Notes: generated by a model from the sequence alone, not told the origin. Shown: positions 4,262 to 23,374, numbered from the stretch's first letter. The stretch: 24,863 nucleotides of DNA from a virus (IMGVR_UViG_3300009785_000084:1-24863), one strand, 5' to 3'. Numbers and translations are program-made.

Positions 4262-4729
4262 ATGCAATACAATTTATACAAGCCAAACGCCAAAAGCACT
4301 GGGTGTGCTTTTTCTTTTAAAGTAATTGAAAAAGATAAAGAAGGAAACCCAACCAAGCCGACATTCTTAATTCAAGCTATCAAGCAAGCCAGCTGGAATC
4401 AAAGCAAAAGATCTGGATCATTCAGCGCTAACGCCAAAGACCCAGAGAAGAATATCTATTGCAAAATCAATGAAAATGAGGCTGGCGCTATTTTAAATTC
4501 TATTGAGAAATATGTTGAGTTTTCAGCATTTCATACCTTTAATGATGATAAAACCACAATCTCTCTAAAACCGTATCAAAAAAATAATGGTGTAGACGCT
4601 TGGTCTTTTGGCGTTATTAAAAACTCCACACTTAAGTTTGGTATTGGAATTGAAATTGGCGAAGCTAGAACATTGAAGACTTTGCTAGAGCTGTACCTTA
4701 CAACACTTTTTTCTTACGGAGGCCAATGA
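4262..4729 (+). CDS. Putative phage ssDNA-binding protein (PC4/whirly-like)
   Basis: A protein of 155 residues. I start it at ATG 4262 (MQYNLYKPN) rather than the TTG at 4244, which lies inside the promoter-like region. It has alternating strands ending in GVDAWSFGVIKNSTLKFGIG and a final helix (EARTLKTLLELYLTTLF). An N-terminal NLYKPNAKSTGCAFSF segment is followed by a SWNQSKRSGSF segment. The pattern resembles small ssDNA-binding proteins seen in other phages, but this is from memory and weak. A role in replication fits a genome with its own polymerase and a possible annealing protein. The stop overlaps the next ATG by four bases (ATGA). Its promoter region carries a direct repeat suggesting regulation. 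Confidence 0.4.
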   Translation: MQYNLYKPNAKSTGCAFSFKVIEKDKEGNPTKPTFLIQAIKQASWNQSKRSGSFSANAKDPEKNIYCKINENEAGAILNSIEKYVEFSAFHTFNDDKTTISLKPYQKNNGVDAWSFGVIKNSTLKFGIGIEIGEARTLKTLLELYLTTLFSYGGQ

Positions 4730-6420: not shown

Positions 6421-7505
6421 CAGAAGTTTACGCAAAGGATTTGGGGGTCAGAATTGGCCTGCCCAAAATAACAGATCATTTTTATCCTAATGTCATGGAT
6501 AAATATATTTATTTTAATCCACATAGTGATTACCCATCACAAGAATACAAACATTGGGATATTGTTTTCTCTATGATAGAAGGAGCTTTAGAAGAAAAAG
6601 AAATAGGTATTTTGACAGCTCCAAAACAAAATGAAGTAACAGTTAAACAAAATAATCATTTAATTAAAAAATCATTATTGTATGTAGGCACAGCTAGCCA
6701 TCGAGTCCATATTAGTGACATTTTTTCTATTCCATCTGTTTGTGTATTGGGCAACATGTATAAACAAAATTTTGATTTATTTAAATATGCGGAAATCATA
6801 ACGCCAGATTTTTCAAAACAAAAACCCTCCTTTGAAATTAAGGAGGGTAGAAATAGAGTCGATGAAATCAAGCCAGAGTCTATAGCTAAAATTATATTAG
6901 CTCAACTTGAAATCGAGTTAGATCTTAATTTCGAGACAATTAGAATTGGCGAAAATTTTCATAGCTCCACAATGGAAATTGTACCTAACTTTTTTGAGCC
7001 CTACCAGGAAGTCAAAGGCAAATCAGTAAATTTAAGATCAGATCTCCACTTTGATCTGGAGATGATAACTTATTGGTGCCAGCATTGCATTGTTAATCTT
7101 TACTTAGATAAAGAGCTAGAAGAAGACGTCGTAGCTAATTTATCAAATCTCAAACAAATTGTTTTTAAATATTCCGAAGAACATCAAAAACAAGACCTAG
7201 CAAACTTTTTTAAAATATTAAAAAAATACGGAAAGAACATTATTATAGAAGTTTTTAACGAAAAAATAGTTTCTGATGTGAGACTAAAGTATTTCGATTA
7301 TAGTGTGATTTTAAAACAAGAAGTTCCCGAGGTGTCCGACTTGCCCAAAGACTGTAAATGTATATCTAATAAGCAATTCGCTTCAAACGGGGAGTTTTAT
7401 TTATCAGAATCTTCCGCTAAAAGACTTGACAAAACGAATAACTTCGTATATGATGGAATCTCAAAATTAGAAATAGAAAGTTTATACTTATATGTCAAAA
7501 AATAA
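6408..7505 (+). CDS. C-terminal half of GT9-like domain plus unknown domain
   Basis: A 365-residue ORF beginning 12 bases before the TAG of the glycosyltransferase, in the -1 frame. Its first residues, MSHIAEVYAKDLGVRI, continue a GT9/heptosyltransferase fold at exactly the point where the upstream ORF ends. LLYVGTASHRVHISDIFSIP fits the conserved second-domain donor region of that family. Residues about 175-365 form an additional alpha/beta region (for example VNLRSDLHFDLEMITYWC) that I do not recognise. There is no ribosome-binding site near ATG 6408, so translation probably restarts after the upstream stop. Alternatives are a real frameshift mutation or an assembly error splitting one GT4-GT9 enzyme. 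A TAA in this frame at 6402-6404 rules out a simple longer reading. Confidence 0.65.
   Translation: MSHIAEVYAKDLGVRIGLPKITDHFYPNVMDKYIYFNPHSDYPSQEYKHWDIVFSMIEGALEEKEIGILTAPKQNEVTVKQNNHLIKKSLLYVGTASHRVHISDIFSIPSVCVLGNMYKQNFDLFKYAEIITPDFSKQKPSFEIKEGRNRVDEIKPESIAKIILAQLEIELDLNFETIRIGENFHSSTMEIVPNFFEPYQEVKGKSVNLRSDLHFDLEMITYWCQHCIVNLYLDKELEEDVVANLSNLKQIVFKYSEEHQKQDLANFFKILKKYGKNIIIEVFNEKIVSDVRLKYFDYSVILKQEVPEVSDLPKDCKCISNKQFASNGEFYLSESSAKRLDKTNNFVYDGISKLEIESLYLYVKK
7426..7454 (+). promoter_or_regulatory. Sigma-70-like promoter inside the GT9 ORF
   Basis: TTGACA (7426-7431), a 17-base spacer and TATGAT (7449-7454, five of six matches to consensus) form a near-ideal sigma-70 promoter. Initiation near 7461 would give a leader of about 30 bases for the gene at 7492. 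A second -10-like TATACT lies at 7483-7488, three bases before that ATG. Confidence 0.55.
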
Positions 7506-8232: not shown

Positions 8233-8240
8233 ATTAATTT
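8221..8240. repeat. 20-bp perfect AT-only palindrome at convergent stops
   Basis: AAATTAATTT occurs twice in tandem. The unit is itself palindromic, so the 20-mer reads the same on both strands. It contains the stop codons of both converging genes (TAA at 8230-8232 on plus, TAA at 8236-8234 on minus). Confidence 0.6.
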
Positions 8241-11200
8241 ACAGTAGTTTCAAAGAAGGCGGAATCGACAACGGTTCCGTCTTTTTTTAGATCAAATTTC
8301 ATATTAAACCCAGAATTATAAGATCCAAAAACAATAGCGTTGTCTATATCATTAAATTTAAATACATCGTGCTCATAATCTTCTGTCACAAGAACGTATT
8401 GACCATTTTTTTCTACAAAGGCATCTAAGGTATAATCTAGTTGAGTTAAACTAAACACTCTATCTTTTTTATCTACTGTCACAAATCTATATTCTACATC
8501 TTCGTAATTTGAAATTCCAACTCCAAATCCACTACCGCTTATCCTTTGATAACTATTGCTATCCGAATGACCCATTCCTATATTTTTAATTATAGGCTTC
8601 ATGTAAACATCCCTTTTGCTTTCTATTGTAAATGTAGATCCATAAGTACTGCTTGACTCTGGATTTCTAAGAGCTGCAATTTTGACAGAATAAGTTCCAT
8701 CTATCAATCCATTTATTTCAAAAGATGTGACATCGTCAGATTCTCTTTGAAATTCTTTTTGTATATATGGCCCAGATTGAGCCGACCTGTAAAGAGAAAC
8801 TCTGTAAGATGTCTCATTACTATTAGGTTGAGCACTTATTTCTCCAGTTATAGCATAAGTTAAATCGTTTTTCGCAAATTGATCATGTACTGCATTTGGA
8901 GTAAGGGGTCTATTTATTGTATGTGCTGGTATACCTATATTATGAGTAATTTCTACATCATCGAAATCTTCACTTTCTATTTTTTTAAATTTTTGTAAGT
9001 TGTATTGCATCGCTTCAATATCGAACGTATTATTCTCTTGTTCGGTCTTTTTAATAACTTTATAAGTTTTGTCTACGTCGTTATTTAGCTCTATATTAAA
9101 GAAAGAGCCAGTTGGTACTCCAGTTAAATTTTCAAAATTAGCATCTTCAGTATCTAAGAATAATTTCATTGAATTTTCTAGTTCTGTAACCCCAGTTACT
9201 TGCATTTTTTGTATTTGTGTTAAACTGGATTCGTCAATAAAGTCACTATTTACAACACCCCTATAAGTATCTGAGTCTTCTCCGAACTGATAGGCTGTTT
9301 GGAATCTCACTATATCATATATGTTTTCCAATTCATTCTGTTTTCTATTTGTATATAAATATACCCCTCCATTTGCTCCTAATTGAATTGAGCTCATTTT
9401 TACATTACTTTCTACTGTAATATATGGGTCTGGAGTAGAGGACTTTACCGCTAAAACTTTTCCATAATTTATTTCAAAATTCTTAACCTCATCGTCAATT
9501 CTAATTATATCCCCTGGCTCTAAACATATGCATTCCGTAGACCCTCTGAACTTTACAATCTCTGTTTCCATTTTATTGCTAAGTAAAACGTATTTTCCCA
9601 TTCTCCTGGCTTGAGATTTAGATGTAGAACCTATGCCGTTTAACATTTTTGTAATAATTCCGTATTTTCTTATCCCATCTTCGTCTTCTATATATTCTGA
9701 TTTATTTCCGTATAAATTACTCCTATCAGAGTATACAACTTCGACTTTTGTAAATCTAGCAGAAGATGTTATATCTCCATAACTGAATATTCCATCGTGT
9801 ACGTTTCCATTGTTGAAAATCGCGCTAATTTCTTTTTCGTTATCTATCGCAAAGTTTAAACCAACTCCATCCCAATAAGTGAATCCCCTAAATACAGAGG
9901 CTATGTTTCCTATAACCTCAAATGCATTTTTGGGCTCATAAATTCTAAGATTACAGCTAAACCTCGGCTCTAAACCCCTCGTGGCATCTGACAACCCATC
10001 GAAATATCCATCATTATCTACAGCATCGCAATACTGCGCTATTTTATATAGGTTAAATATATTTATATCCTCCCTATCATCTATCGCGTTACCTACTCCA
10101 TAAATAGGGTTTGACATTATGTCGTATAGAATCCAAGCGGGGTTATCACTCCAGCCTAATTTAAACGTTCCGTCCCAAGGGCCATTGTAAATTCTTTCCC
10201 TATTCTTGCCAAAAGTAAAATTTGAATCTAAAACTGCATTCGCTGTACCTGCGAGGTCTGCATGAAATCCTCCCACTCTATCTTTAATGCAATTATCGTG
10301 GCGCACTGTATCTATAACAGTTCCGTCCCAATGATGTATTAGTTGATTGTTTTTTCTTATTTTAAGGTCAGATAATTTCGTTCCCGCTTTTAGTTTAGTA
10401 GTGCTACTCCAATCTGAGAAGCCCATGAATAAATAAGGAGGCGAGTCTGCATTTAGATTGTTTGTCGTGCCGCCAAATTGTATATTTCCCCTTGGAGTGC
10501 TCATTGTATTAGAACTGGTTCCAACCACTTCATCTCCAACTTTTACTTCTAATGTGTATTTTTTTCCGACTGCCTTTAAACTAATGTCATACACATCTGC
10601 TGGATTGACATTGCCAACTGTCAAGAAACTTGGATCCGACCTAAATCTTTTAACTACTCCTGCTACATCGTATGTGTCAGTAATATAATCTGTTCCTTGT
10701 ACGGATAAATTTCTTATAGCGCCACTTCCTTTCCGACTAACTGTGGTATTCTGACTATTAACTCCTAATAAAAATAAACCATTGATTATCACCATTCCAT
10801 GAGAATTAGATTCCATATTAGCTAATTGAGAAGATGTAAGTTCTACAATGGTCTCGGGGGGATCTTTGCTTACGTCTTTAAGCGTTATTCCATCCAATAA
10901 ATTACCCTCAATCTTAAATTGTACAAATTCAAATTTGCGAAAAATTCTCGTACTGTTGGAATTTACGCTCGAAACCGTAGTTGTGATTATGGTGTCATTA
11001 CCATCTTTATTAGTGCCATTAGCTGATCTACCTGCAGCTTGCATATTTATTCTACCATCACTATTGAACTTTATCTCTAGTCTTTGAGGGCTATTTGTCC
11101 ACAATATAGCGCCGTCAGTAACGTTGTCTCCTATCAAATAATCAAACTGTATATCAATATCTTTACCATCTGCACCATCAGTTACAATAACCTTAGGCAC

Positions 11201-14005
11201 ACTAATCGTAAGATTTTGGGCATTGTTTATATACTCCCACTCAGAATATTGATGTTCGTTATTTCTTCCAGCTATACTCGTCACGAGTTCGAAATCGACC
11301 TTAGCCTCACCGTCAGTTAAAGTGGATTTTCTTATTACGGCCATTATCGCATTGCTCCTTTGAAATATAGCGACTCTATTTGCCTGGGTAGATCCTCCGT
11401 CCATGTCCACAATATACTGAGGGTCACTAGTCGTCGTAGATATAGAGCCAAATCCAATTCTTGCTTCAATTTCAAAATTACTAGTCCCCAAATCAATATG
11501 ATCATAAACTTTTCCATAACCTCCTCCATCAAAAGTTTGAATACTTCTTAATCCATATTTTTTTGAACTTGAGATAAATCTTTTGTCACTGCCGTCTGCG
11601 TTTAATGGTTCGTAGTTTGACGGGATTGCAATAAGTTTTCCTCTGACTTCGAAGTCTCTGCTCGGCGCGACCGCAAAATTTCTCGCATCAAATATTGTGC
11701 CAGCTGTAGCTACAAGGGGATAACTAAATGGTTCTTGTATACTTTCAGAAATATAGCTTAGAGAACACTCTCTGGTGATAAGCGTTGAGTCTGTTTCAAA
11801 GCTCTTTTTTTCTACTGTAACAAATCTATTAGGGTTCTTCCACTCTTCTCCAGGAAATATAAGGTCTCCAGATGTATACCCATATTGATCTATCATAGCT
11901 TGTGTCAGACCTGGTATATCAGTATCATCAACCGTGACAGACTTTAAAGACTTGTTTTTTGGCAAATCTCCTATTCCAGAATATGTATCAAGATAATTAG
12001 AAGTTACAATACCAGCATATCGGACAAGGTCTTCTTGTTCGAACAGTCCTAATGCTATATTTTGTATATTATTTCCTGCGGCCAATAAATCACTTACAAC
12101 TCCGCTCACTCCGCCTTTAAAACCGTAACGGTAAGATATTAATAAAGTTTCAGATCTTTGGACGCCAGCATCGTTGCCGTCAGCTATGATGTCGCTTAAA
12201 CCTTCTATAGCTATGGTGGGCGTACATTTTTTTACGTCTATTCTTTTAACTGTGTGAGTATATGGATATGCATCGTTTTCTAATGGGGGATTGATCATCC
12301 AATTTGAAAAGTCTCCCCCTTGTCTCGGGTCAGAATATCCTTGCCCGTCGCCAGCTCTAGCGTCTCCTCCATATGAAAGTGGGCCGAATAATTTTTTTCT
12401 TATATCAAAATCTTGAACTCCTTCATCATGACCCTCCATTGTTGGTTGAGTTTCGAAACCATTTCTAAAATCAAAATCAACATTTCCATAATTGTATTTG
12501 AAATTTAAATCACTAATATAGCCTAGGCCAATTTCCTTACCAGCTATTTCTCCTCGGATAGGAGATAATTGACTTGAGCTTGGCGATTCTAGTGAAATCG
12601 GGCCAGTGGCACTATCATAAACAAAAACATCGTATCCGTTGTCTAGGCCACTTTGTAGTGTATTTGGGACATTGACGCCCTTTTGAGCAAAAAACTTTCC
12701 AGTATTAAATACCCCTGCGGACGCTTCCTCCTCGTTATCCCCAATTTCGAAAAAGTATATCCCTCCTCCAGCAAATCCATCTATCAAATATTGTTTTCCT
12801 ACTTTACCAGCTTGATTTACATCTAGTACATTTGGAGCAGCGGTGTAGGTACCAAACTTGCTATCATTTAAAACTTGATAACCATAAATAACTGAAGAAG
12901 GAATTTCTACAACTCGTCCATCTTCCTGTTGTATTGATCTTTTTGCTTTGCCCGCTCCATTATATACATCTAAATCGAATATTGTGGCATTATAGATTTC
13001 ATTTGCTACAGCATTGAAGTTGGTAAGTTTTACATTCCGCTCTTTCCATGCAATAGCTGGGGAAAGATTAGCCGCACCAGGATATTGATACCAAATAGAG
13101 CTCTCTCTGTCAACCCACGGAAAATCTTCACTTGTTGAGGTCGCCTCAGCAATTGCTAGACTCGTGTCGTTCCCATTAGTGCTACTTGTGGCATATGAGT
13201 AAAGTTCGCCAAAGTGCCAAAAAAAGTTTCCATTACCAGCGTCTTGCTTAAAGATAGTAGCTGTAGCCGCGTTACCAGCTGAATTGGTGTACGCTACGTT
13301 CCATTTTAATGATCCCTCTGACCTAAGCTGTGTCGGTGTCGACGCGCCTGCTTGCATCGCTATTGTTGCGGTTCCTTTGAAAGTATTAGTTCCATCGCTC
13401 CATTCAATTCTGAAATCAGTTACGGTGGCTGGGTCTACAGGGGCGCTGCTATCAAATTGGTTGGTGGTGCTACTTATCCTTGAATATATATTATCAGTAT
13501 GTGGAAAAATTCCATTCAATTTAAATTGAATAAACCCAAATCTGCTTAAAGACTTATTTTCCTCCAAAAATTCCAACAAAGCCTGCTTGTCTTGACCAAT
13601 TTCTTCTTTTTTAAAAACAGACATGCCAGAATTATTGATATTATAGGTTTCGGGAGCTACCAATTCTCCAGATATATTATTGAAAGCAGTTTCTATATTT
13701 CCGCTAGTTAACCTACCCATCATTTGGATTTGATCAAAGTCTACTGTCCTTATTTGAGCTTGAGATGTGCTTCTGTCTAAAACTGAAGTATCTTCTAAAT
13801 ATACAGACTCTAGCAAATTTATATTATTTGGTTTTTTTCCTTCTTTATCAATCAAACCATAAATTGGACCTTCAGATATTAAATCCATAACAGCCATTGA
13901 CGCGATAGATTGCAATGCATCTTGACCCGCAGTTGGTGGCTCAAGCGTAGCCGAGCCTCTGATCGGCTTAGCCTTTGACTTTAAATATTCCTTGTAGTCC
14001 TTCAT
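8234..14005 (-). CDS. Tail tip / host-specificity protein J, second copy (J2) with LamG-like insertion
   Basis: A 1923-residue lambda gpJ-type protein, the central hub and receptor-contacting fibre at the tail end. The N-terminus has the family signature MDLISEGPIYGLIDKEG. A motif shared with the other J lies near residue 292 (ATSTSEDFPWV), followed near 575 by WMINPPLENDAYPYTHTVKR. The most conserved block starts near 1272 (YNGPWDGTFKLGWSDNPAWI, then INIFNLYKIAQYCDAVD and LEPRFSCNL). Between IPSNYEPL (about 795) and that block sits an insertion of roughly 450 residues with concanavalin/LamG-like traits (FDGGGYGKVYDHIDLG at its start; LIHHWDGTVID at its end). The other copy has none there. 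A fibronectin-III-like module (about 1715-1790) and a unique tail of about 130 residues follow. It is the last gene of the minus-strand tail unit. The start lacks a good Shine-Dalgarno but has GTGTAATGTAATTAGG before the ATG. Confidence 0.88.
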   Translation of the reverse strand: MKDYKEYLKSKAKPIRGSATLEPPTAGQDALQSIASMAVMDLISEGPIYGLIDKEGKKPNNINLLESVYLEDTSVLDRSTSQAQIRTVDFDQIQMMGRLTSGNIETAFNNISGELVAPETYNINNSGMSVFKKEEIGQDKQALLEFLEENKSLSRFGFIQFKLNGIFPHTDNIYSRISSTTNQFDSSAPVDPATVTDFRIEWSDGTNTFKGTATIAMQAGASTPTQLRSEGSLKWNVAYTNSAGNAATATIFKQDAGNGNFFWHFGELYSYATSSTNGNDTSLAIAEATSTSEDFPWVDRESSIWYQYPGAANLSPAIAWKERNVKLTNFNAVANEIYNATIFDLDVYNGAGKAKRSIQQEDGRVVEIPSSVIYGYQVLNDSKFGTYTAAPNVLDVNQAGKVGKQYLIDGFAGGGIYFFEIGDNEEEASAGVFNTGKFFAQKGVNVPNTLQSGLDNGYDVFVYDSATGPISLESPSSSQLSPIRGEIAGKEIGLGYISDLNFKYNYGNVDFDFRNGFETQPTMEGHDEGVQDFDIRKKLFGPLSYGGDARAGDGQGYSDPRQGGDFSNWMINPPLENDAYPYTHTVKRIDVKKCTPTIAIEGLSDIIADGNDAGVQRSETLLISYRYGFKGGVSGVVSDLLAAGNNIQNIALGLFEQEDLVRYAGIVTSNYLDTYSGIGDLPKNKSLKSVTVDDTDIPGLTQAMIDQYGYTSGDLIFPGEEWKNPNRFVTVEKKSFETDSTLITRECSLSYISESIQEPFSYPLVATAGTIFDARNFAVAPSRDFEVRGKLIAIPSNYEPLNADGSDKRFISSSKKYGLRSIQTFDGGGYGKVYDHIDLGTSNFEIEARIGFGSISTTTSDPQYIVDMDGGSTQANRVAIFQRSNAIMAVIRKSTLTDGEAKVDFELVTSIAGRNNEHQYSEWEYINNAQNLTISVPKVIVTDGADGKDIDIQFDYLIGDNVTDGAILWTNSPQRLEIKFNSDGRINMQAAGRSANGTNKDGNDTIITTTVSSVNSNSTRIFRKFEFVQFKIEGNLLDGITLKDVSKDPPETIVELTSSQLANMESNSHGMVIINGLFLLGVNSQNTTVSRKGSGAIRNLSVQGTDYITDTYDVAGVVKRFRSDPSFLTVGNVNPADVYDISLKAVGKKYTLEVKVGDEVVGTSSNTMSTPRGNIQFGGTTNNLNADSPPYLFMGFSDWSSTTKLKAGTKLSDLKIRKNNQLIHHWDGTVIDTVRHDNCIKDRVGGFHADLAGTANAVLDSNFTFGKNRERIYNGPWDGTFKLGWSDNPAWILYDIMSNPIYGVGNAIDDREDINIFNLYKIAQYCDAVDNDGYFDGLSDATRGLEPRFSCNLRIYEPKNAFEVIGNIASVFRGFTYWDGVGLNFAIDNEKEISAIFNNGNVHDGIFSYGDITSSARFTKVEVVYSDRSNLYGNKSEYIEDEDGIRKYGIITKMLNGIGSTSKSQARRMGKYVLLSNKMETEIVKFRGSTECICLEPGDIIRIDDEVKNFEINYGKVLAVKSSTPDPYITVESNVKMSSIQLGANGGVYLYTNRKQNELENIYDIVRFQTAYQFGEDSDTYRGVVNSDFIDESSLTQIQKMQVTGVTELENSMKLFLDTEDANFENLTGVPTGSFFNIELNNDVDKTYKVIKKTEQENNTFDIEAMQYNLQKFKKIESEDFDDVEITHNIGIPAHTINRPLTPNAVHDQFAKNDLTYAITGEISAQPNSNETSYRVSLYRSAQSGPYIQKEFQRESDDVTSFEINGLIDGTYSVKIAALRNPESSSTYGSTFTIESKRDVYMKPIIKNIGMGHSDSNSYQRISGSGFGVGISNYEDVEYRFVTVDKKDRVFSLTQLDYTLDAFVEKNGQYVLVTEDYEHDVFKFNDIDNAIVFGSYNSGFNMKFDLKKDGTVVDSAFFETTVN
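8258..8288 (+). terminator. Rho-independent terminator for the plus-strand block
   Basis: A ten-pair stem, GGCGGAATCG with CGGTTCCGTC (two G-T wobbles), closes an ACAA loop and is followed by seven T. It ends transcription of the plus-strand gene finishing at 8232. It lies within the last codons of the converging J gene and resembles the terminator at 3081 in its GGCGG...CCGTC-T-run design. Confidence 0.85.
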
Positions 14006-14015
14006 CCTAATTACA

Positions 14016-14396
14016 TTACACTATATTGACAAGGCAGTAATCAATTACTTTTTTCCTGTCACTAAGCAAAAGTTTTAGTTTTATTTCGCTTTGGGTTGCT
14101 TTGGGTTTTATTCTGCCTCCATTTTGTTTAAATCCTGTATTTTTTTTAGTATAATTTTTAGTGCTTTCTTCGTATTCGTAAACCTCAAGGCACAAATTTT
14201 CTCCATCTGCAAAAACTGTTTCAAAAGTTTTCATATTTCTTAACTCTACAAATATACTCATGTCGTCATGACGTTCTATAGTTATAAATCTTTTCGCATG
14301 ATTGAATTGTGATTGCGTTTTTCCATTAACCCTTATCGTTGCTATTTGTATCGGCTTTGGTTCAACTGGTAAAACTAGTACTGAATGTCTAATCAT
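14016..14396 (-). CDS. Unknown 126-residue protein between the two J genes
   Basis: It begins 6 bases after the first J stop and ends 10 bases before the second J start, so it is part of the tail operon. A weak ribosome-binding site, GGA, lies about 10 bases before the ATG. The sequence is strand-rich: SVLVLPVEPKPIQIATIRVN, RFITIERHDDMSIFVELRN, then a Lys-rich region GGRIKPKATQSEIKLKLLL. No Cys cluster, signal peptide or membrane segment is seen. The position suggests a J-associated structural or assembly protein. I do not recognise a family. Confidence 0.7.
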   Translation of the reverse strand: MIRHSVLVLPVEPKPIQIATIRVNGKTQSQFNHAKRFITIERHDDMSIFVELRNMKTFETVFADGENLCLEVYEYEESTKNYTKKNTGFKQNGGRIKPKATQSEIKLKLLLSDRKKVIDYCLVNIV

Positions 14397-14402
14397 AATT
14401 TT

Positions 14403-17400
14403 TTATCCGTTAAATATTTTTCTTGAATCTGCTGATTCTACATCTACCGACGTTATTTCAAATGAATAAGTTCCATAAACATTAATGTCATCGAAACTAC
14501 CCGTCGTTATAAATTTATTATTTTGAACAACATCTTGTTTTGCTATTCTCCTTGTATTTGTGGTGCCATTTGGATGGACGACGTTAATATTGTAAATTGT
14601 TTCATTGCCATCTAAATCTCCACTAATTGTAAAGTTTATTTTTTGAGCATATTCAGTGTTTACTAATTCGGTCGAAAATCCGTGTGGTTGAGTAATTGTC
14701 TTAATTGTATTTTCGGGTATGCCAACATTATATGGCTCTGTCTCATCTAAAGTAAAATCAGTCGGCTTTTCAATCAAATCAAACTTTTCTTTTCTATATT
14801 CTGTGGCGCTAATAGCATACAAATTAGTATCTTCTGGTTGTATAGTTAATACTCTATATTGTTGTGGCACCCTGTTCGTCAAATCTAAATTAATCAAAGT
14901 GCCGACTTGAACATCGGAAAAATATCCATCTGTGTCGTCTATACCAATTTTTATTTTGCTAGACAAATCTTCTACTCCAGTAATTTTTAATTTCCTAACT
15001 TGAGGTATGTACATATCATCTAACTCTTGGCTTCCGATTGTGCCTCCGTTTCCAACATGATTATACAAGTCAACTAATTTATCTTGTCCTGTAGACATTA
15101 TTACATAAGCCCCGCTATGATTATTAAGTATAGAATTTACGTTTGGCCTGTTTTCTATTGTTAATGATTTAATAGAAGGGTAAGTAAGGCTGGAATCAGA
15201 AGTCGAACTATCTGCTGATACTTTTATTTTTCGACCAGCGTTTACGGTTAAATTTTGGTTATCGCTGGTATCGGCTATATCAATTACTTCCCCAAAGACT
15301 GTAAAGGTATTAAAGCTAGGATCGTTAGACGCTAATATTCTTAATTTTTTGGCACCATGATAGCTTGACATTTCTACTTGAATTTGTGATATATCTTTAG
15401 CTGATCCAAAATCAACAGTTAAATAATTATCAGACGCATCATACCCCGCTGCACTAGACAAACCTAAAGTCCACCACATGTTACTTCCGCCAAAAGCTTG
15501 GTGTGGTCCATATGTACTGCTATTTGAATAACCAGCTGTTACAGTTAACCCATCCCTTACATAAGGTCCAATTTCAAGTGTCGTTCCATCGCCCGCAACA
15601 TAATCACTACCATTACTTTGAAAATTTGTTTCGGGAAAACTTTTACCATTAGTATCTATTAAAGTTATTTCTTTAATAGATTGCTGATCGGTCGTTGCAG
15701 TGTTATCGCTGTTTGTTCCTAAAAATTTAAAATATCGGAACGACCCTTGTCCAGCGAATGTTTGATCTCCAAAATCCTTTTGTAAAATCTCTGCGTAACT
15801 TGGTTCGAAGGTTTTAAGTTCATCTTGGACTTCAATAATATCTCCTATAGAAACCATCAAGCCTTGGCTAGATGTTTTAAAGTTTACGATTTCTCTTTCT
15901 AGTTTATTTGAATATAAAATATATCTACCCAATCTTCTTGCTTGGCTTCTACTTGTTGCGCCTTTAGCCGTCACCGTTCTTCTTTTTAGGCCATTTTGTC
16001 TCATTCCATCTTCATCGATTACGGTTTCTTTTTTAGCTGTATAGTCATCTTTTTTATCTAAATATACTACATCTGCCACATTGAATAACGCAGACTTGTC
16101 TGTCGTTTGATAATTAAATATTCCATCAAAAACATTTCCATTATTGAAAACCATCATAGTCTCTTTAGGTTGATCTGCAAAAAAATCAAGACTACCATTT
16201 GCCCAGAAAGCCATTCCGTTGAATACGCTAGAAATATCTTTTATAGTCTCGAATGCATTATTTTCTGAATCTAACATTATGTTGCAAGAAAACCTTGGTT
16301 CTAATCCACCTAGTCCGTTATCTAATCCAACGAAATGACCATTAGAATCTACAGCATCACAATATCTACCAATTTTATATAAGTTAAAAATATTTATATC
16401 TTCGAGATCATCTATCCTATTGCCAATTCCATATCTTTGATTAGTCATTAAATCATAAAGTATCCAGGCTGGATTATCAGACCAGGCTAATTTAAATGTT
16501 CCATCCCAATCCCCATTATAAATAACTCTTGTTCCTAAACTTGAAGCATCCTCCACAAATCTTGCATCCCTTTTATCTGGACTTAAAGGAAAATAATTAG
16601 AAGGAACTAATATCTTTTTTAATCTTAACTGATATTGCTTGTTTGGGGGCGTTTGAAATGTTCTCGCATCTATTGATGTTTTTAAGATAGCGGAAAATGG
16701 ATATGAAAAACGTTCTTTTATAACTTCTGTAACTTGGTATACTCTAGCGGCTCTACCTATTCTGACAGAATTTGTTTCAAAATCATTTTTTCTTATAACA
16801 ACTTTTCTTGGAAATTGGTTACATAAACTGTTTATATCTTCATTGGGGTAATCGTCGACTATTTCGTTGTAAGAGGGTAGTGTGATTTGATCGCTATCCG
16901 TCGCAAAAAAACTAGTAACAATTCCAAAATGAGAAATTTGTGTTTCTTGCGCAGGGAATATACTTTCTGGAACCCCATCAAAAGAGACAAAAACTGAAAA
17001 GTTTATTTGTGTGGCGTCTTGCTTAACACTGCTATCTAAAACACTTAATTCTGTTAGAATATCTTGATATAATCGTTCAATAATAAAAGTCACCGTTACA
17101 CAATCTACATCTTTTCGTTTAACTATATGTGTACAGTCTATTGTATCGACGTCTAATGGGACATCATTCATCCAGTCGGATTGCAATGTTCCATCTGATT
17201 GAAGATCAGTGCTAGCTGTACCTTCGACAGCACTATACTTTCTCATCCCATAGTCTCCCAGCCTATCGATGGTGGTGCCTAGGGCGGTAGGGTCGGAGGT
17301 GGTCTGAGTTCTGTTTATTTCTTTTAGATGAGGATCGGTCTTATCTCTAGAATTAGTTGGCCCAAATATGCTCTTATTATAATCCGTGGATGTGCGGCTT

Positions 17401-20400
17401 TCATTAGTAATTGGTTCTTGGACCTCTTCTCCAAACCTATAATCCATTGAAAAATCGGTAAAATTAAATAAAGTTGAATCTTTTTCAATTGTTTTTAATT
17501 CTATGTCTTTCCCATAAAGCTCAGCATCCGTTATCTTAATATTCGGATTAGCTCTATGCACGTATTGAAATTTACCATCCTTTTGAGAAAACACATCATA
17601 ATCTCCAGATATGCCACTTGCTATTTTTTGGCCACTTATTTCCGCACTATCATCAGTTGTTATAAATATTTTATTAGTGTCAAGTGAGTGATCAGCATTT
17701 ACTGGTAAACCCTTTTCTCCTAAATAAACTGGAAAATTAAATGCTCCCTTAAACCTGTTTGACTCAGACTCCGTTAATTCTTTTCCAATATTATATGGTA
17801 TATACGATCCAGTTACCATCGGCAACCTAGTCTCCGCGTAATCCTTCGCTGGCGTGTAAGACCTATACCGTCCTTCTATCGCTCCAGGCTCAAAATCATT
17901 AAGCATATATTCATGGGTCATAGACTCGTACTCAGTTCCGCGGCGCACATCAAAACCAGTGACTTCTGGATAGGCGCATCCGAGAGTATTAGAATCGTCT
18001 AATGACAATACGTTACCGCCCACCGTGAAATATAATTTATGATTTTTTTTAAAATTATTATTAACTAATGGAAATAGTGGATTACCTGCGCTATCTGCAA
18101 AGTTACTAAACTTTATACTGCAAGGATCTAGTAACTTACCATTATGCGGTGGCCCAGAAGATTGTGCTCTAGAGTTTTCATCAAATTTCTTGGCGGTGGC
18201 GGCTGTCAGTACATATCCATTTTGATTATAGTGGGTGGCCGCACCATAAATAGGATATTTTCCTTGGTAATAGTATGCTATTGGGTCTATTATGCTAAAA
18301 GTATGTGTAGGTATCGTATAGTCATACCAAGTGGTCAAGCCTGCATTAGCGCCGACCCAGGGATAATCTGTACTTGTTTCAGTTGCTCCATCAATCGTGT
18401 TACTTATGTCGCTTCCATTATCGCTACCCTCGGCCCACGAATTAACGAATCCGCTTACCCGTGTATTCCTATCGTAGCGTTTTAAACGCCAATAGTATGC
18501 GTCTGAACCCACTGCCTTTTGTTTGTCAAGTAAATTGTCGACATGTCTCACTAGGGTTGGTCCTGGCCCTATCGGAGTGCCACCACTACTCCCGTAATCG
18601 TCTGGCGTCTCATAGATGCTACGCCCATCCAAGTAGTCTCCAGCACGATAACGCGCAATCCATTGTCTCGATCCATTTTTTAGAATTGGTTGCCCATTGC
18701 TATTTGCATATAATCTTACGCTTTCTTTAGTGCTTATAGCTCCATTACTAATTTCCATATCAAAAGTAGCTACTTTATCACAAATGGAATGATCTTCTGT
18801 TTGTTGCTTTAGTCCAAAAAATTTATCAGCAGAAAAGCATATATATCCAAAATCGTTTTTAGGTGTGTATTGATTTGCTAAATTTTCTCCTAAAACTGCA
18901 AGATCATTTAAATGAAACGCGTCATCTATCATTCCAGCTCCTGGATTTGAGTTGTTTTTATAAGCTCTGATTTGGCATCGCCCTGGTTCGCCAGTATGTA
19001 AATATTCTTCATCAAAGGAGTGCCACTCGTCTGCAGGATATTGATCATTTAGTCCTGTTACTCTAATTATATTTTTGTAGTCGGAACTGGAACCCACACC
19101 AGGAGTAATTTTATTGAGCGGTGCAACGCTTTGAATTCGTATAGAATTAATATTAGTATTAGTGGAGGGTAGTAGAAAAGATCCAGTAATTCTGTACTTT
19201 ACTCCTTTTTGAAAAGTCTTTAAATCCTCATAACCGTAACTACCCTCATTATCTCCCCGCTGCTCATAAATATACATGGAGCCCTCGCCTGGGGCTGTAA
19301 AAACATCACTGTGTCTTTGATCATTTAGACCGCCCGTAATCGCTTTACTGCGAGTAACATTCAGTCTTGGCATTATATTATATAGCCCATCTGTTCGATC
19401 ATCGCTCCCAGCTGGGTGATCGCCCACTCTAGGGGCGTTATTAAATGGCTCGGATCTAAAAAATTTATGAGGTTTCCAGTGATCTAATCCAAGATTATTT
19501 ATCTTATTACTTAATACATCTATTAGGGGTTCTTTTAATCCTTGCGGGTGCGTGTTTGTAGCAAATTCGTTTACAAATTTGGAAGGACGTCCATTTTCAA
19601 AAACACTGGCTGTAGATCTATTACTCATATAAGGCAATTGATAGTCCCCAAAGCCCAGTGCCGCTGCGCAATAATACAATACAGACCTGCGTTGATCGTC
19701 GTTCCGAGGCGCAGTCGTGGAGAAGTGTATATAATTAATCATGGCTCTTGAACAAAAGATTTGGCCCAACCTTCCCTGTTCGTTTACTGATTGACCATGG
19801 TTATAACTTCCTTGGTATACTACTGGTTTACTTTCTGGAAAGCTCCAAGCGCTCTCCATGTTCCAATTACTAACGAGCACATCTGGAAAGTACAATTTTT
19901 GAACATTGTAGGGCGATTTTCTGAACCCAAATCCCGCTCTATAATAACTCATATAATTATCGGCGCATGAGTGGGCAATCGCAAACTTTCTCCAATTCAA
20001 GTAAGACATAGAACCATCGGCCCTATACCGATGACCAATGTTACTCATGATATATGTGTCCATGGGATACATGAAATGAAGGGGCTGACCATTGCCTTGC
20101 GTGATATTTGGATCTAGCGTCATTTTTTCGACAAGTATATTTTCTAATTTATTCTTGTCTGTAATAACCAACTGACGTCTTGTACTTCCCATAGATGCAT
20201 CGTTGATGGGTAGCATATAAGTGGGCTTAGGAATAGGCTCTCTATGATTAAATCTTTTTACCAAATCCTGTTCGTATTCATTTATTTTTCCACTTACAAA
20301 ATGTTCCACATGGTGGGTTGCCACATCCATTTTAGCTACTGTTAAGGGTTCAGTTCTTGTCGCTGTTGATTTAGGCTCTTCTACAACCGTCCCGTCAAGA

Positions 20401-20684
20401 TATGTGGCTTCTAATGGGCCGCAACTTTCTCCTTTTTGATTTACAAAACCTTCTATTGGGCCATCAGAAACCAAATCACAACTAGTAAGTTTAGCGGTCG
20501 ATAGTTTTAAATCAGATCCAAGCGGGGTGCTTAATCTCGTAAATTGGCCGACTATGGAATCTGCATTAGCCTGCAGTCTAACCGCTCGCCTTTTATCGTT
20601 CGAAGCCGACAAGCTACCAAAAAGAGCACCCCTCACAGAAAATTTACTGTAATTTTTATATTTTTTTAAAATATATTCTTTCAT
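14403..20684 (-). CDS. Tail tip / host-specificity protein J, first copy (J1), 2093 residues
   Basis: A giant lambda gpJ-type tail hub protein. The N-terminus carries CDLVSDGPIEGFVNQKGE. A region at about 480-600 resembles a galactose-binding-fold carbohydrate module (GVKYRITGSFLLPSTNTN near its start, ending with a DDAFHLNDLAVL strand). ATETSTDYPWV near 772 and WMNDVPLDVDTIDCTHIVKR near 1175 match the second J. The core block starts near 1388 (YNGDWDGTFKLAWSDNPAWI, INIFNLYKIGRYCDAVDSNG, LEPRFSCNI). A discoidin/F5-8C-like module, absent from the second J, is inserted at about 1700-1810 (NYLTVDFGSAKDISQIQVEM, KKLRILASNDPSFNTF). A fibronectin-III-like stretch ends the chain. The ATG overlaps the upstream stop by one base (TAATG). 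Parts of the gene are visibly richer in G+C than its neighbours (34 of 60 at 18541-18600), suggesting acquired domains. Confidence 0.9.
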   Translation of the reverse strand: MKEYILKKYKNYSKFSVRGALFGSLSASNDKRRAVRLQANADSIVGQFTRLSTPLGSDLKLSTAKLTSCDLVSDGPIEGFVNQKGESCGPLEATYLDGTVVEEPKSTATRTEPLTVAKMDVATHHVEHFVSGKINEYEQDLVKRFNHREPIPKPTYMLPINDASMGSTRRQLVITDKNKLENILVEKMTLDPNITQGNGQPLHFMYPMDTYIMSNIGHRYRADGSMSYLNWRKFAIAHSCADNYMSYYRAGFGFRKSPYNVQKLYFPDVLVSNWNMESAWSFPESKPVVYQGSYNHGQSVNEQGRLGQIFCSRAMINYIHFSTTAPRNDDQRRSVLYYCAAALGFGDYQLPYMSNRSTASVFENGRPSKFVNEFATNTHPQGLKEPLIDVLSNKINNLGLDHWKPHKFFRSEPFNNAPRVGDHPAGSDDRTDGLYNIMPRLNVTRSKAITGGLNDQRHSDVFTAPGEGSMYIYEQRGDNEGSYGYEDLKTFQKGVKYRITGSFLLPSTNTNINSIRIQSVAPLNKITPGVGSSSDYKNIIRVTGLNDQYPADEWHSFDEEYLHTGEPGRCQIRAYKNNSNPGAGMIDDAFHLNDLAVLGENLANQYTPKNDFGYICFSADKFFGLKQQTEDHSICDKVATFDMEISNGAISTKESVRLYANSNGQPILKNGSRQWIARYRAGDYLDGRSIYETPDDYGSSGGTPIGPGPTLVRHVDNLLDKQKAVGSDAYYWRLKRYDRNTRVSGFVNSWAEGSDNGSDISNTIDGATETSTDYPWVGANAGLTTWYDYTIPTHTFSIIDPIAYYYQGKYPIYGAATHYNQNGYVLTAATAKKFDENSRAQSSGPPHNGKLLDPCSIKFSNFADSAGNPLFPLVNNNFKKNHKLYFTVGGNVLSLDDSNTLGCAYPEVTGFDVRRGTEYESMTHEYMLNDFEPGAIEGRYRSYTPAKDYAETRLPMVTGSYIPYNIGKELTESESNRFKGAFNFPVYLGEKGLPVNADHSLDTNKIFITTDDSAEISGQKIASGISGDYDVFSQKDGKFQYVHRANPNIKITDAELYGKDIELKTIEKDSTLFNFTDFSMDYRFGEEVQEPITNESRTSTDYNKSIFGPTNSRDKTDPHLKEINRTQTTSDPTALGTTIDRLGDYGMRKYSAVEGTASTDLQSDGTLQSDWMNDVPLDVDTIDCTHIVKRKDVDCVTVTFIIERLYQDILTELSVLDSSVKQDATQINFSVFVSFDGVPESIFPAQETQISHFGIVTSFFATDSDQITLPSYNEIVDDYPNEDINSLCNQFPRKVVIRKNDFETNSVRIGRAARVYQVTEVIKERFSYPFSAILKTSIDARTFQTPPNKQYQLRLKKILVPSNYFPLSPDKRDARFVEDASSLGTRVIYNGDWDGTFKLAWSDNPAWILYDLMTNQRYGIGNRIDDLEDINIFNLYKIGRYCDAVDSNGHFVGLDNGLGGLEPRFSCNIMLDSENNAFETIKDISSVFNGMAFWANGSLDFFADQPKETMMVFNNGNVFDGIFNYQTTDKSALFNVADVVYLDKKDDYTAKKETVIDEDGMRQNGLKRRTVTAKGATSRSQARRLGRYILYSNKLEREIVNFKTSSQGLMVSIGDIIEVQDELKTFEPSYAEILQKDFGDQTFAGQGSFRYFKFLGTNSDNTATTDQQSIKEITLIDTNGKSFPETNFQSNGSDYVAGDGTTLEIGPYVRDGLTVTAGYSNSSTYGPHQAFGGSNMWWTLGLSSAAGYDASDNYLTVDFGSAKDISQIQVEMSSYHGAKKLRILASNDPSFNTFTVFGEVIDIADTSDNQNLTVNAGRKIKVSADSSTSDSSLTYPSIKSLTIENRPNVNSILNNHSGAYVIMSTGQDKLVDLYNHVGNGGTIGSQELDDMYIPQVRKLKITGVEDLSSKIKIGIDDTDGYFSDVQVGTLINLDLTNRVPQQYRVLTIQPEDTNLYAISATEYRKEKFDLIEKPTDFTLDETEPYNVGIPENTIKTITQPHGFSTELVNTEYAQKINFTISGDLDGNETIYNINVVHPNGTTNTRRIAKQDVVQNNKFITTGSFDDINVYGTYSFEITSVDVESADSRKIFNG

Positions 20685-21373
20685 TAAAATGTTCTATATA
20701 ATTCAGATACAGAGCTACCAAAAGAGTTTTGTATTTTTAATAAAGCATTTGTTCTATTAGATTTAAATCTTCTTTGTAGTTGAGCGTCTAAATGTAATTC
20801 AAAGTTTGTAACAGAAGTCCCGATAACATAAGACCCCACCCTCAATCTTCCATATACAATAGGTATAGCTCTGCCCTGTGTAGACACATTGCTTGGATTT
20901 TGAAAAAGAAAGGATGAATTTTTTATAGACGCTTTAATACTTGATTCTCTCGGCTCGTTTTCTGGTATAGGCGTTAGCAAATACATAATACCAGCAATAA
21001 GCAAACCCACACCTAATGCTATAAAAAATGCAGATACGGCGACACTCAAGCCCCCAAAAACACCAATACCAATAGCAGCAACTCCAAGGACTACTGCGAA
21101 AGCAGGCCCGTAACCAATTAGACAAGGAACTAAATCCACTTGTTCAATTTTCTTTTCGCTTTGCATTAATTCAAATGCGTTTTTTGATTTACCATCTAAT
21201 ATTATTTCGTAGTGTCCTCCAGCTTTAGCATTATCAATAATATGCTTTCTAAATCCAGGGAAAATAGCATCTAAAGCATGGACCACATCTATAGGTTTTT
21301 TTATATTTGCAAATTCAAAAGACTCTCCGTAAATTTTTTGGAGTTTGCCATGTAGTTTGATTTTTGTCTTCAT
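20684..21373 (-). CDS. Tail assembly protein I-like, second copy (I2)
   Basis: A 229-residue lambda gpI-type tail assembly protein. Residues 1-85 are a ubiquitin-like N-part (KIKLHGKLQKIYGESFEFAN). A long hydrophobic, Gly/Ala-rich segment (about 92-135) ends in YLLTPIPENEP. Then comes the conserved part SFLFQNPSNVSTQGRAIPIV with YGRLRVGSYVIG. The first I protein shares TPIPENEP and the YGxLRVGS motif, so they are paralogs. The C-terminus (SELYRTF) differs. Its ATG overlaps the upstream stop (TAATG) and is preceded, at a 6-base gap, by AGGAGGAGG lying in the upstream gene's poly-glycine codons. In lambda, gpI is needed for tail-tip assembly and is not abundant in virions. The role of a second copy beside a second J is inferred as J-specific chaperoning. 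Confidence 0.82.
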   Translation of the reverse strand: MKTKIKLHGKLQKIYGESFEFANIKKPIDVVHALDAIFPGFRKHIIDNAKAGGHYEIILDGKSKNAFELMQSEKKIEQVDLVPCLIGYGPAFAVVLGVAAIGIGVFGGLSVAVSAFFIALGVGLLIAGIMYLLTPIPENEPRESSIKASIKNSSFLFQNPSNVSTQGRAIPIVYGRLRVGSYVIGTSVTNFELHLDAQLQRRFKSNRTNALLKIQNSFGSSVSELYRTF

Positions 21374-21960
21374 TAGTAGCCTCCTCCTCCGCCGCCGCCG
21401 CCGCCAGCACCACCCGACGAGGTTGAGCTTCCGCCAGTTGAAGATGATGTATTTCTATCAATAGCCTCAATTAAAGTTTCCGTTACTCTAGATCCAACTC
21501 TAAGTTCTCCATACCCAACTGGGACGTTACTATATTGAGATGTAAAATTACCTTTAGATGCGAAAAAGAAAGATTTTCCGCCTAACTGAGCTACCATTGC
21601 TTGCGGTTCATTTTCTGGAATTGGAGTCATTAAATATTGTATGCCAGCCATAACCAATCCAATTGCTAAGTTTACTGCAAAAGCAATACCTACTGGCCCA
21701 GAACCCCCGACAAAAGGAACAATATCTATTGTTTCAATTTCTCTTTTGTTTGAAGCTTGATTTGCGTTTTCGACTAACTCTCCATCAACTATAAATTGGT
21801 ATAAATGATTTCTTTCGGCTTCTCTAAGAAAGAAATTTTTAAAACCATCATAGTTAGCATCGATAGCCAAGATAGCGTCTACTGGTTTAGCGATGTTCGC
21901 CATTTTAAAGTGGGGCTTAAATTTTCTTGCAACTAATCCGTGTAACCTTATTTCTGTCAT
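21373..21960 (-). CDS. Tail assembly protein I-like, first copy (I1), poly-Gly tail
   Basis: A 195-residue lambda gpI-type protein. It has an N-terminal small domain (TEIRLHGLVARKFKPHFKMA), a hydrophobic segment at about 88-112 ending in YLMTPIPENEP, and the conserved region KSFFFASKGNFTSQYSNVPV followed by YGELRVGSRVTE. The C-terminus is a Ser/Thr/Gly linker ending in nine consecutive Gly and a Tyr. Gly-rich tails of this kind are common in gpI homologues, and the tract here also supplies the ribosome-binding site for the next gene. Its ATG overlaps the stop of the JAB gene by four bases (ATGA). It is one of two I paralogs in tandem. Confidence 0.82.
   Translation of the reverse strand: MTEIRLHGLVARKFKPHFKMANIAKPVDAILAIDANYDGFKNFFLREAERNHLYQFIVDGELVENANQASNKREIETIDIVPFVGGSGPVGIAFAVNLAIGLVMAGIQYLMTPIPENEPQAMVAQLGGKSFFFASKGNFTSQYSNVPVGYGELRVGSRVTETLIEAIDRNTSSSTGGSSTSSGGAGGGGGGGGGY
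21380..21405 (-). repeat. GGC/GGA triplet tract serving as Shine-Dalgarno for I2
   Basis: On the minus strand five GGC codons (21405-21391) are followed by GGAGGAGGAGG (21390-21380), then CTACTA and the ATG of I2 (21373). The tract encodes the poly-glycine tail of I1 and presents an excellent AGGAGG site at a 6-base spacing. Confidence 0.7.
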
Positions 21961-22331
21961 GCTACTTCCTCCCTTAGTTGATTTAGTTGCTCTTGTTTCG
22001 CGTCAGAATGCTCTGGTTCATGAATTCCAAATTTATTATTTTTTGTACAATAGATCAAAAATGGATAACAAATAACATCGGCAGATTTTATATCAAAAGG
22101 TGAAGGATTCTCAGTTCCGTCATTATGGGAATGATAAACAGCTACAATATCGCTATTGTTTTTTATGTAAAGAAATTCCTTTGCTGGTATGTAAAATTGA
22201 TTTTTTTTGTCTTCTGCTCGGTTTTCGCACATGATCAAATCAAGCTCCCCATCTTTATATATAATGAAACCGCAACGCTCTTCGGAAACATCTTTTTCAC
22301 ATTCAAATTCTATTTTTCTTTTTATGCTCAT
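21957..22331 (-). CDS. Tail tip K-like protein, JAB/JAMM domain only
   Basis: A 124-residue MPN/JAMM metalloprotease-fold protein. Visible zinc-site motif: a Glu in SEERCGFII (17 or 18), His67 and His69 in YHSHND, Ser77 and Asp80 in NPSPFD. This matches HxHx7SxxD, so the site looks intact. In lambda, gpK has an N-terminal JAB domain followed by an NlpC/P60 peptidase. Here the chain stops after JAB, so peptidoglycan cleavage by P60 is missing or encoded elsewhere. The position between L and I is the canonical one. The start overlaps the L stop by one base (TAATG) and the stop overlaps the next ATG. Confidence 0.85.
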   Translation of the reverse strand: MSIKRKIEFECEKDVSEERCGFIIYKDGELDLIMCENRAEDKKNQFYIPAKEFLYIKNNSDIVAVYHSHNDGTENPSPFDIKSADVICYPFLIYCTKNNKFGIHEPEHSDAKQEQLNQLREEVA

Positions 22332-23374
22332 TAGTAAGAATATTTTTCTGTTCCTGGAAATCCACCATAAGGAAGATTTTTATTATTATTCACGCCACCT
22401 AAATCATCGTTAGCATATCTTAATCTGCAGCCAAATAATTTCTTAGAACATTCGTCTTTAATCCATAAGTCTGGCCTATCTTCTGGTCTTGCACCAGCAG
22501 CTGATGTATGGGCGCTTTTGCATATATAGTAAACTGGGTGTTGCTGATAGTAATTTGATGTAAGCCCTTGCCCTTCACTTACCCTATCGCTAAGCGTGAA
22601 AATATAATCCGCTACTTCGTAAGATTTGTCAGCTTCCCATAGCCCTTCTGGAGTTATTAAAGTATCTACACTAGTAGAGCTCGCCGTCACAGGAAATAAA
22701 TCGCCATTTAATGAAAAATTAGTTCCAGCACCAGTGACAAATGACTGGTCATTTGCGGTAGCTATCGGCCTATCATGCCCTGGCTCGGTTTTGTTGTATC
22801 CATACCTACATCCAAATCCTCTGTAAATCCAAGAACAGTACCTTGCCGAAATTTTTCTAGATGGGATTTCTATATTTTCAAGCTCCAAACTAGAAACTAA
22901 TTCAAACTCAACTGCGAGTTTATTTTCAGACATTTTTCTAGAAATGAAATACTTGTCGTCTGGCATTCTAGCATTAGGGTTCGCAGTTCCCCATGGATTT
23001 TGATTATTAGGAAAGTTTGCATCGTCTATAAATTTTAAAAATGTTCTTTTTCTTACCACTTTTGCACCATTCAAGTTATCAAAACGCCTCAAAAGGGAAG
23101 AAATATAAAGCCCTGCGTTAGAGACCTTTACTACAGGTCTAGGCAATCTCTGGTCACCCAATAAATCAAACCCCTGCGCTTCTGCTGGAATTGGCAAATA
23201 CTCTTGGCCATCAAAGATAATTGGCCCTCCAATGCCATTAGTTCCTCCATGAAAATTGATTTGGGCTTGAGAATCTTTCTGGTAATTGTAATATAATGTA
23301 AATAATTCCAACAGTGCCGTCGGTTCTACATCAAAAATAGCTCTTGCAAAAGCTTGATTTATTCCATTTGCCAT
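22331..23374 (-). CDS. Minor tail protein L (Fe-S type) with inserted carbohydrate-binding-like module
   Basis: A 347-residue lambda gpL-type tail tip protein. Cys180 and Cys189 (ARYCSWIYRGFGC) plus Cys309 and Cys316 (ECSKKLFGC) have the same pair spacings (9 and 7) as the four Fe-S ligands reported for lambda gpL. The C-terminal GGFPG motif is also typical. Between the Cys pairs lie about 120 residues instead of about 20. This insert includes WEADKSYEVADYIF and YYICKSAHTSAAGARPEDRP before DLW, which resembles a CBM5/12-like fold, with an extra Cys285. It is the first gene of the minus-strand tail unit. It has no Shine-Dalgarno; its ATG is preceded by GTGTAATATAATAC. Confidence 0.87.
   Translation of the reverse strand: MANGINQAFARAIFDVEPTALLELFTLYYNYQKDSQAQINFHGGTNGIGGPIIFDGQEYLPIPAEAQGFDLLGDQRLPRPVVKVSNAGLYISSLLRRFDNLNGAKVVRKRTFLKFIDDANFPNNQNPWGTANPNARMPDDKYFISRKMSENKLAVEFELVSSLELENIEIPSRKISARYCSWIYRGFGCRYGYNKTEPGHDRPIATANDQSFVTGAGTNFSLNGDLFPVTASSTSVDTLITPEGLWEADKSYEVADYIFTLSDRVSEGQGLTSNYYQQHPVYYICKSAHTSAAGARPEDRPDLWIKDECSKKLFGCRLRYANDDLGGVNNNKNLPYGGFPGTEKYSY

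Follow-up and report, generated by a model that had tools for sequence, protein, structure and literature searches.

Paralogous gpI and gpJ pairs in a single phage tail-tip operon: a candidate for alternative or mixed tail-tip hubs

In a siphophage tail the central hub closes the tube, detects the receptor and sets off the release of DNA, and it is regarded as a single trimeric protein. In lambda the tip consists of three gpJ, three gpI and three gpL, and gpI carries two hydrophobic helices that are thought possibly to enter the outer membrane (PMC11101478). In the Salmonella phage Jersey the gpJ-like hub is without a C-terminal antireceptor, and an added N-terminal domain, inserted in HDII, has been proposed to fill that role (PMC13243795). 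The lactococcal 936-group phage Phi4.2 encodes two receptor-binding proteins in adjacent genes, both of which are found in the virion (PMC6315561), so that two receptor-binding proteins per virion are already known, but not at the hub. Among the titles and abstracts listed from the open-licence literature we found no report of paired J hubs.

The window analysed here, IMGVR_UViG_3300009785_000084, is a whole IMG/VR entry of 24,863 bases and a fragment of a larger phage genome. Its tail-tip operon runs on the minus strand from 23374 to 8234 in the order gpL, gpK, I1, I2, J1, a 126-aa gene and J2, and the seven genes are tightly packed, neighbours overlapping or standing apart by about 10 bases at most. 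An earlier note on this DNA had given the order I1 next to I2 and then J1, a small gene and J2, and all seven minus-strand open reading frames were recovered at their places. The features are as follows.

22331..23374, minus strand: gpL-like tail-tip protein (HDI and Fe-S part of the hub), 347 aa, single copy; Pfam Phage_tail_L PF05100, E 3e-39
21957..22331, minus strand: gpK-like protein, JAB domain only, 124 aa; Prok-JAB PF14464, E 1e-8; phrog_30
21373..21960, minus strand: I1, first gpI (plug) paralog, 195 aa, with a short hydrophobic stretch and a Gly/Ser-rich C-terminus; phrog_32, E 4e-22
20684..21373, minus strand: I2, second gpI (plug) paralog, 229 aa, with a longer hydrophobic stretch; phrog_32, E 1.6e-35
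14403..20684, minus strand: J1, first gpJ hub paralog, 2093 aa; phrog_31 ('central tail fiber J'), E 1e-102; Phage-tail_3
16812..20363, minus strand: large N-terminal module of J1, about aa 108-1291, candidate host-facing; 1194 aa from the N-terminal motif to HDII, hypervariable in close pairs
15783..16526, minus strand: J1 hub core, 248 aa; 54-55% identity to the J2 core; profile match to lambda gpJ
15207..15536, minus strand: aa 1717-1826 of J1, where an F5/8 type C (discoidin-like) domain may be inserted; Pfam E 0.0016, which misses the family cut-off
14016..14396, minus strand: 126-aa gene between J1 and J2; predicted Ig-like beta sandwich
8234..14005, minus strand: J2, second gpJ hub paralog, 1923 aa; phrog_31, E 7e-97
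10199..11608, minus strand: J2 insert between HDII and core, about aa 800-1269, tentatively laminin-G-like, candidate host-facing; Foldseek, low-confidence model
9452..10195, minus strand: J2 hub core, 248 aa; 54-55% identity to the J1 core; profile match to lambda gpJ

The operon converges with orf246 and two glycosyltransferase-like genes, and ClpA-like and DnaE-like genes lie farther off. At 4726-7505 a glycosyltransferase-like gene (phrog_2170) is followed by a gene that tentatively looks like another, and both are kept beside the operon across the family. In a consensus scan, promoter-like sites were no commoner than in shuffles, so nothing speaks against a single transcript. Lambda gpK usually has an NlpC/P60 part, which is missing from the gpK-like protein at 21957-22331.

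The presence of two I-like and two J-like proteins in one operon, as claimed in the earlier note, holds: phrog_32 matches both I proteins, phrog_31 matches both J proteins, and the members of each pair are homologous to each other. I1 and I2 are 36% identical over 184 aa (E 2e-37), and the hub cores of J1 and J2 are 54-55% identical over 247-248 aa (E 4e-82), values that rule out the sharing of motifs by chance. The J1/J2 alignment spans nearly the entire conserved length; identity is about 30% for HDII and the region of the N-terminal motif, and about 25% on the C-terminal side of the core. The note had also named a refuting outcome, homology confined to the core block; this is ruled out by further homologous stretches at the N-terminus (SDGPI/SEGPI), in HDII (SYPF, DAR.F, PSNY.PL) and after the core. 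Among the shared blocks that it had listed, SDGPI/SEGPI, DAR.F and PSNY.PL are confirmed, but the PWV motif corresponds only to a minor 69-aa match within poorly alignable modules. A profile built from ten J sequences hits PDB chains of lambda gpJ (194-506), of F2-pyocin and of other J proteins, and an I profile matches lambda gpI 14-212 (PDB chain). By phrog and profile, the N-terminal domain, hydrophobic stretch and C-terminal plug of the gpI family are homologous in I1 and I2, and HDII-HDIV of J1 and J2 are homologous to those of gpJ. The phrog hits, pairwise alignments and profile matches to lambda gpI and gpJ establish I1/I2 and J1/J2 as genuine paralogs within the I and J families of lambda.

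The two J proteins are built differently around the common hub. In J1 genes the N-terminal module measures 885-1415 aa and the joint from HDII to the core only 19-29 aa, whereas in J2, measurable in seven genes, the part in front is 508-883 aa long and HDII is separated from the core by an insert of 227-470 aa, which no J1 has. After the end of the hub there are about 110-120 aa in J1 and about 245 aa in J2, against roughly 500 in lambda, so that neither has room for a lambda-style C-terminal shaft, fibre and receptor-binding domain, and none was found; the C-terminal part is variable within the J family. PA14/GLEYA domains occur in the J1 module of the orthologues in L016, L097 and L112, and the possible F5/8C-type insert of the J1 in the window is absent from the other aligned J1 proteins. 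The model of the J2 insert (pLDDT 55) gave Foldseek hits to laminin-G with TM to target of 0.54-0.60, from which a laminin-G-like fold is tentatively suggested. The hydrophobic stretch is 27-29 aa long in I1, 48-49 aa in I2 (two measured) and 55-60 aa in several single I proteins. The 126-aa gene keeps its place and a constant size (124-140 aa) with variable sequence across the inner dual clade; it is absent from the outer dual lineages L022, L137 and L142 and is therefore dispensable for the dual state. Its product is predicted to form an Ig-like beta sandwich (AlphaFold pLDDT 82), and a structural search gave no informative fold match.

Including the source contig, the dual I/J layout is present in 21 IMG/VR contigs from many metagenomes; some of these are near copies of one another, and further contigs stop before J2. 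The 20 others are L009, L010, L011, L013, L015, L016, L018, L020, L022, L106, L107, L108, L112, L114, L126, L127, L137, L138, L139 and L142. Single-pair relatives, which the earlier note had suggested looking for, were found in the same gene neighbourhood: many relatives have one I and one J, and several of them have the same neighbours, orf246 and GT1. Every dual contig that reaches gpL has one gpL gene, no dual contig has a third J, and an 84.7-kb sibling contig has one gpM-like match; a whole second tail module is thereby ruled out. With a single gpL and no third J, one docking site appears to serve two hubs.

In L009:4180-10460, which is near-identical to the source contig, a one-base length difference in an A-run splits J1 into two open reading frames, as an allele or a sequencing error, and in several lineages J is split into two or more open reading frames with the N-terminal part as a separate gene (L024:2063-12328, L025:7439-14617, L142:1393-9095). 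Two or three long I-like genes (430-500 aa) stand ahead of a single J in L044:2262-6504 and L156:2957-5885; the latter contig is binned as a Lokiarchaeota MAG yet has the phage gene neighbourhood, and is probably a misbinned phage contig. In the Pseudomonas prophage-like loci L187, L206, L222, L224, L228, L231 and L232 two tandem I-like genes are followed by a single J, although some of these hits may overlap. I can thus multiply without J, and the number of I genes is not strictly tied to that of J genes.

No cultured relative was found: orf246 has no match in INPHARED, and the glycosyltransferase is only 22-25% identical to its matches. At a cut-off of E 1e-10 or better, 1,510 INPHARED records matched the J core at 1,511 places; with a second J place in just one of these records, the dual layout has escaped the isolate collection. 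A separate search listed two J places in the INPHARED record PQ843332, which has about twice the length of its relatives and split J open reading frames, and which is probably a concatenated or damaged assembly and not a true dual-J phage. None of 80 loci in GTDB genomes has two J genes, and nine combine a single J with two or more I-like hits.

A tree of HDII and core, with 89 rows and 323 columns, places J1 and J2 in sister clades of their own, each with strong support (100/96 and 99/95), which are joined at 94/85 apart from the single-J relatives; the split is therefore old. In the I tree the I1 and I2 proteins of the group fall in one set of 49 rows with support 96, in which the L024 gene is the sole single I; the separation of I1 from I2 is weaker, with some long branches. 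Any J1 core set against any J2 core, from one genome or from two, gives an identity of 50-56%, so the copies have not been homogenised and gene conversion keeping them alike is ruled out. The simplest reading of both trees is one early split each of I and J in this group, or a second I-J set may have been imported early from a sister phage.

Both copies have been maintained. Among the more diverged pairs dN/dS was 0.28-0.38 for J1, 0.25-0.33 for J2, 0.09-0.24 for I1 and 0.18-0.27 for I2, the very close pairs having too few changes for a judgement. By this measure both J copies are under purifying selection and kept as working genes, and the ratios rule out that one of them is a pseudogene. Across 60 single-J relatives, 54 hub columns show at least 97% invariance; of these, 47 are retained in J1 and 46 in J2, and the two proteins are equally far from the single J proteins (44.4% and 44.6% identity). 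On sequence grounds, the view that J1 and J2 would both be able to act as hubs is supported.

Variation between close relatives is concentrated in a few places. Two metagenomes yielded the contigs L010 and L011, whose sequences agree at about 99-100% along most of a 19.5-kb stretch spanning the entire operon, with three clear dips: the C-terminal part of gpL (95.8%), J1 at aa ~250-430 (94.4%) and the J2 insert, where 82-90% of bases are identical and residue identity goes down to 32% in one stretch. The gpL dip (L010:4601-5100) is a third hotspot of variation beside those in the J genes. In the more distant pair L107/L108 the same J1 and J2 modules are variable and most hub windows are at least 90% identical. 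Diversification thus affects the presumed host-facing modules of both J proteins, which is what contact of both with the host would lead one to expect, and from this variability and the weak fold matches we infer that the modules are candidates for receptor binding.

Two natural experiments bear on how the copies work together. A single I and a single J occupy the same gene neighbourhood in L024; its I is of I2 type (40% identity to I2 against 31% to I1), and its J, split into open reading frames of 1256 and 2156 aa, is of J2 type with a core inside the J2 clade. I1 and J1 were either lost jointly from this lineage or absent from the start, and in this single contig, with its split J, an I2-J2 pair appears to suffice alone and I2 and J2 to go together. 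In L059:3-9430 and L067:3-6421 an independent, younger duplication within a single-J lineage has the order J-I-J, and most hub windows of the two J copies are 75-90% identical while aa 101-450 are mostly 19-59% identical. Judged from these alignments, two J proteins with different N-terminal modules arose at least twice, and the J-I-J case suggests that the dual-J state was selected repeatedly. Together, the lone I2-J2 of L024 and the independent J-I-J arrangement favour cognate pairs acting at one site.

The reading that we prefer, with a probability of roughly 0.55, is that the operon encodes two cognate I-J hub sets which are made together and fill one tip position as alternative or mixed trimers, giving two receptor specificities. 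Duplication of an ancestral I and of an ancestral J, or else the early import of a second set, would have been followed by retention of both copies as working genes; I1, I2, J1 and J2 would be made from one compact operon, J1 and J2 would keep the hub fold HDII-HDIII-HDIV for a seat under the single gpL ring, and each I would supply the plug for a J. The trimers in the tip would then consist of J1, of J2 or of a mixture of the two, J1 presenting its very large N-terminal module at the HDII-insertion position and J2 its laminin-G-like insert between HDII and core, and two receptor specificities would result from a single genome. This account builds on the homology, the old duplication, the constraint on both copies, the single gpL and the focus of diversification on the J modules; that both J proteins enter virions, that I1 pairs with J1 and I2 with J2, and that two receptors are used are what it would predict. 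Two kept, constrained, hub-capable J proteins, each with its own variable module, are what a hub of double specificity predicts. The alternative or mixed hub with a double receptor range put forward in the earlier note is plausible and is strengthened, though not proven, by two full, constrained paralog pairs in which each J has a hypervariable region resembling a receptor module; virion content and receptor use are the conjectural part of it. For the broader version, in which co-expressed, interchangeable hub-plus-plug sets give mixed hubs or two particle classes, as bet-hedging at the hub that evolved at least twice in this family, we see about an even chance.

Some observations count against two interchangeable sets. 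I multiplies without a second J in L044, L156 and the Pseudomonas prophages, and the consistent contrast between J1 and J2 in their decorations and in the length of their C-termini could point to different positions and not to alternatives. In such a division of labour, the main rival reading, J1 and J2 would be in every virion at fixed, different positions, both needed, with one virion type; J1 might be the canonical hub and J2 an extra layer or adhesin, perhaps helped by the 126-aa protein, and I1 and I2 would be likewise specialised. The HDII/core insert in all measurable J2 and no J1, the tails of about 110 and about 245 aa, the shortened hydrophobic stretch of I1 and the fact that J1 and J2 are old and always kept together in the dual clade all fit this arrangement. 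It is nevertheless the less likely one, because L024 gets by on a lone I2-J2 type pair, J1 and J2 both retain almost every hub-invariant residue, the hubs of the young L059 pair, being mostly 75-90% identical, would compete for one site, and the 126-aa gene is absent from the outer dual lineages.

That only one J is now used in the virion, the other being a reserve, a module-donating recombination partner or a protein expressed under other conditions, we regard as improbable. The receptor-like modules of both J proteins do differ between close relatives, as recombination would give; however, purifying selection is similar across both proteins, their hub identity is no higher within a genome, with no sign of exchange, and they lie in one compact operon without invertible repeats. 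Between 8000 and 23500 just one inverted repeat of at least 22 nt was found, a palindrome at the convergence of J2 and orf246, and the operon genes all face one way. A flanked invertible segment, like that of Mu-type phase-variable tail genes, is not present, and an invertible switch is ruled out by the lack of flanking repeats and the uniform gene direction. A chimeric contig joining two phages, or another assembly artefact, is the least credible explanation by far: the layout is known from metagenomic fragments only, with no isolate, but its recurrence in 21 contigs from many metagenomes, in the same order and spacing, with orthologous I1, I2, J1 and J2 clades and the same flanking genes, effectively refutes it.

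If the reading with two hubs at one site is true, one phage may dock on two kinds of cell surface. A lineage with two sets would test whether hubs can be hetero-oligomeric and whether one genome can give two infectious particle types, and how phages hold two receptor specificities without DNA switching.

Compared with the lambda tail tip (PMC11101478, PMC10721106), the operon has the same gene order and families, and the gpI plug and gpJ hub domains are recognisable by profile. It differs in having two I and two J genes in place of one each, so that the standard of one I and one J per operon holds neither here nor in the 20 other contigs, and in the lack of room for a C-terminal shaft and fibre, the very large N-terminal module or mid insert, and a gpK reduced to JAB. 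Single-I, single-J relatives, among them L030-L033, L042, L068, L080, L081 and L084, share the gpL-gpK-I-J arrangement and, on contigs that extend far enough, orf246 and the glycosyltransferase neighbours with the dual operon; an extra gene lies between J and orf246 in L042 and L068. In Phi4.2 the second protein is a peripheral receptor-binding protein on an ordinary baseplate, whereas here the genes of the central hub itself and of its plug are doubled. The Jersey hub resembles these J proteins in having no C-terminal antireceptor and an HDII-insertion module, but Jersey has one J only.
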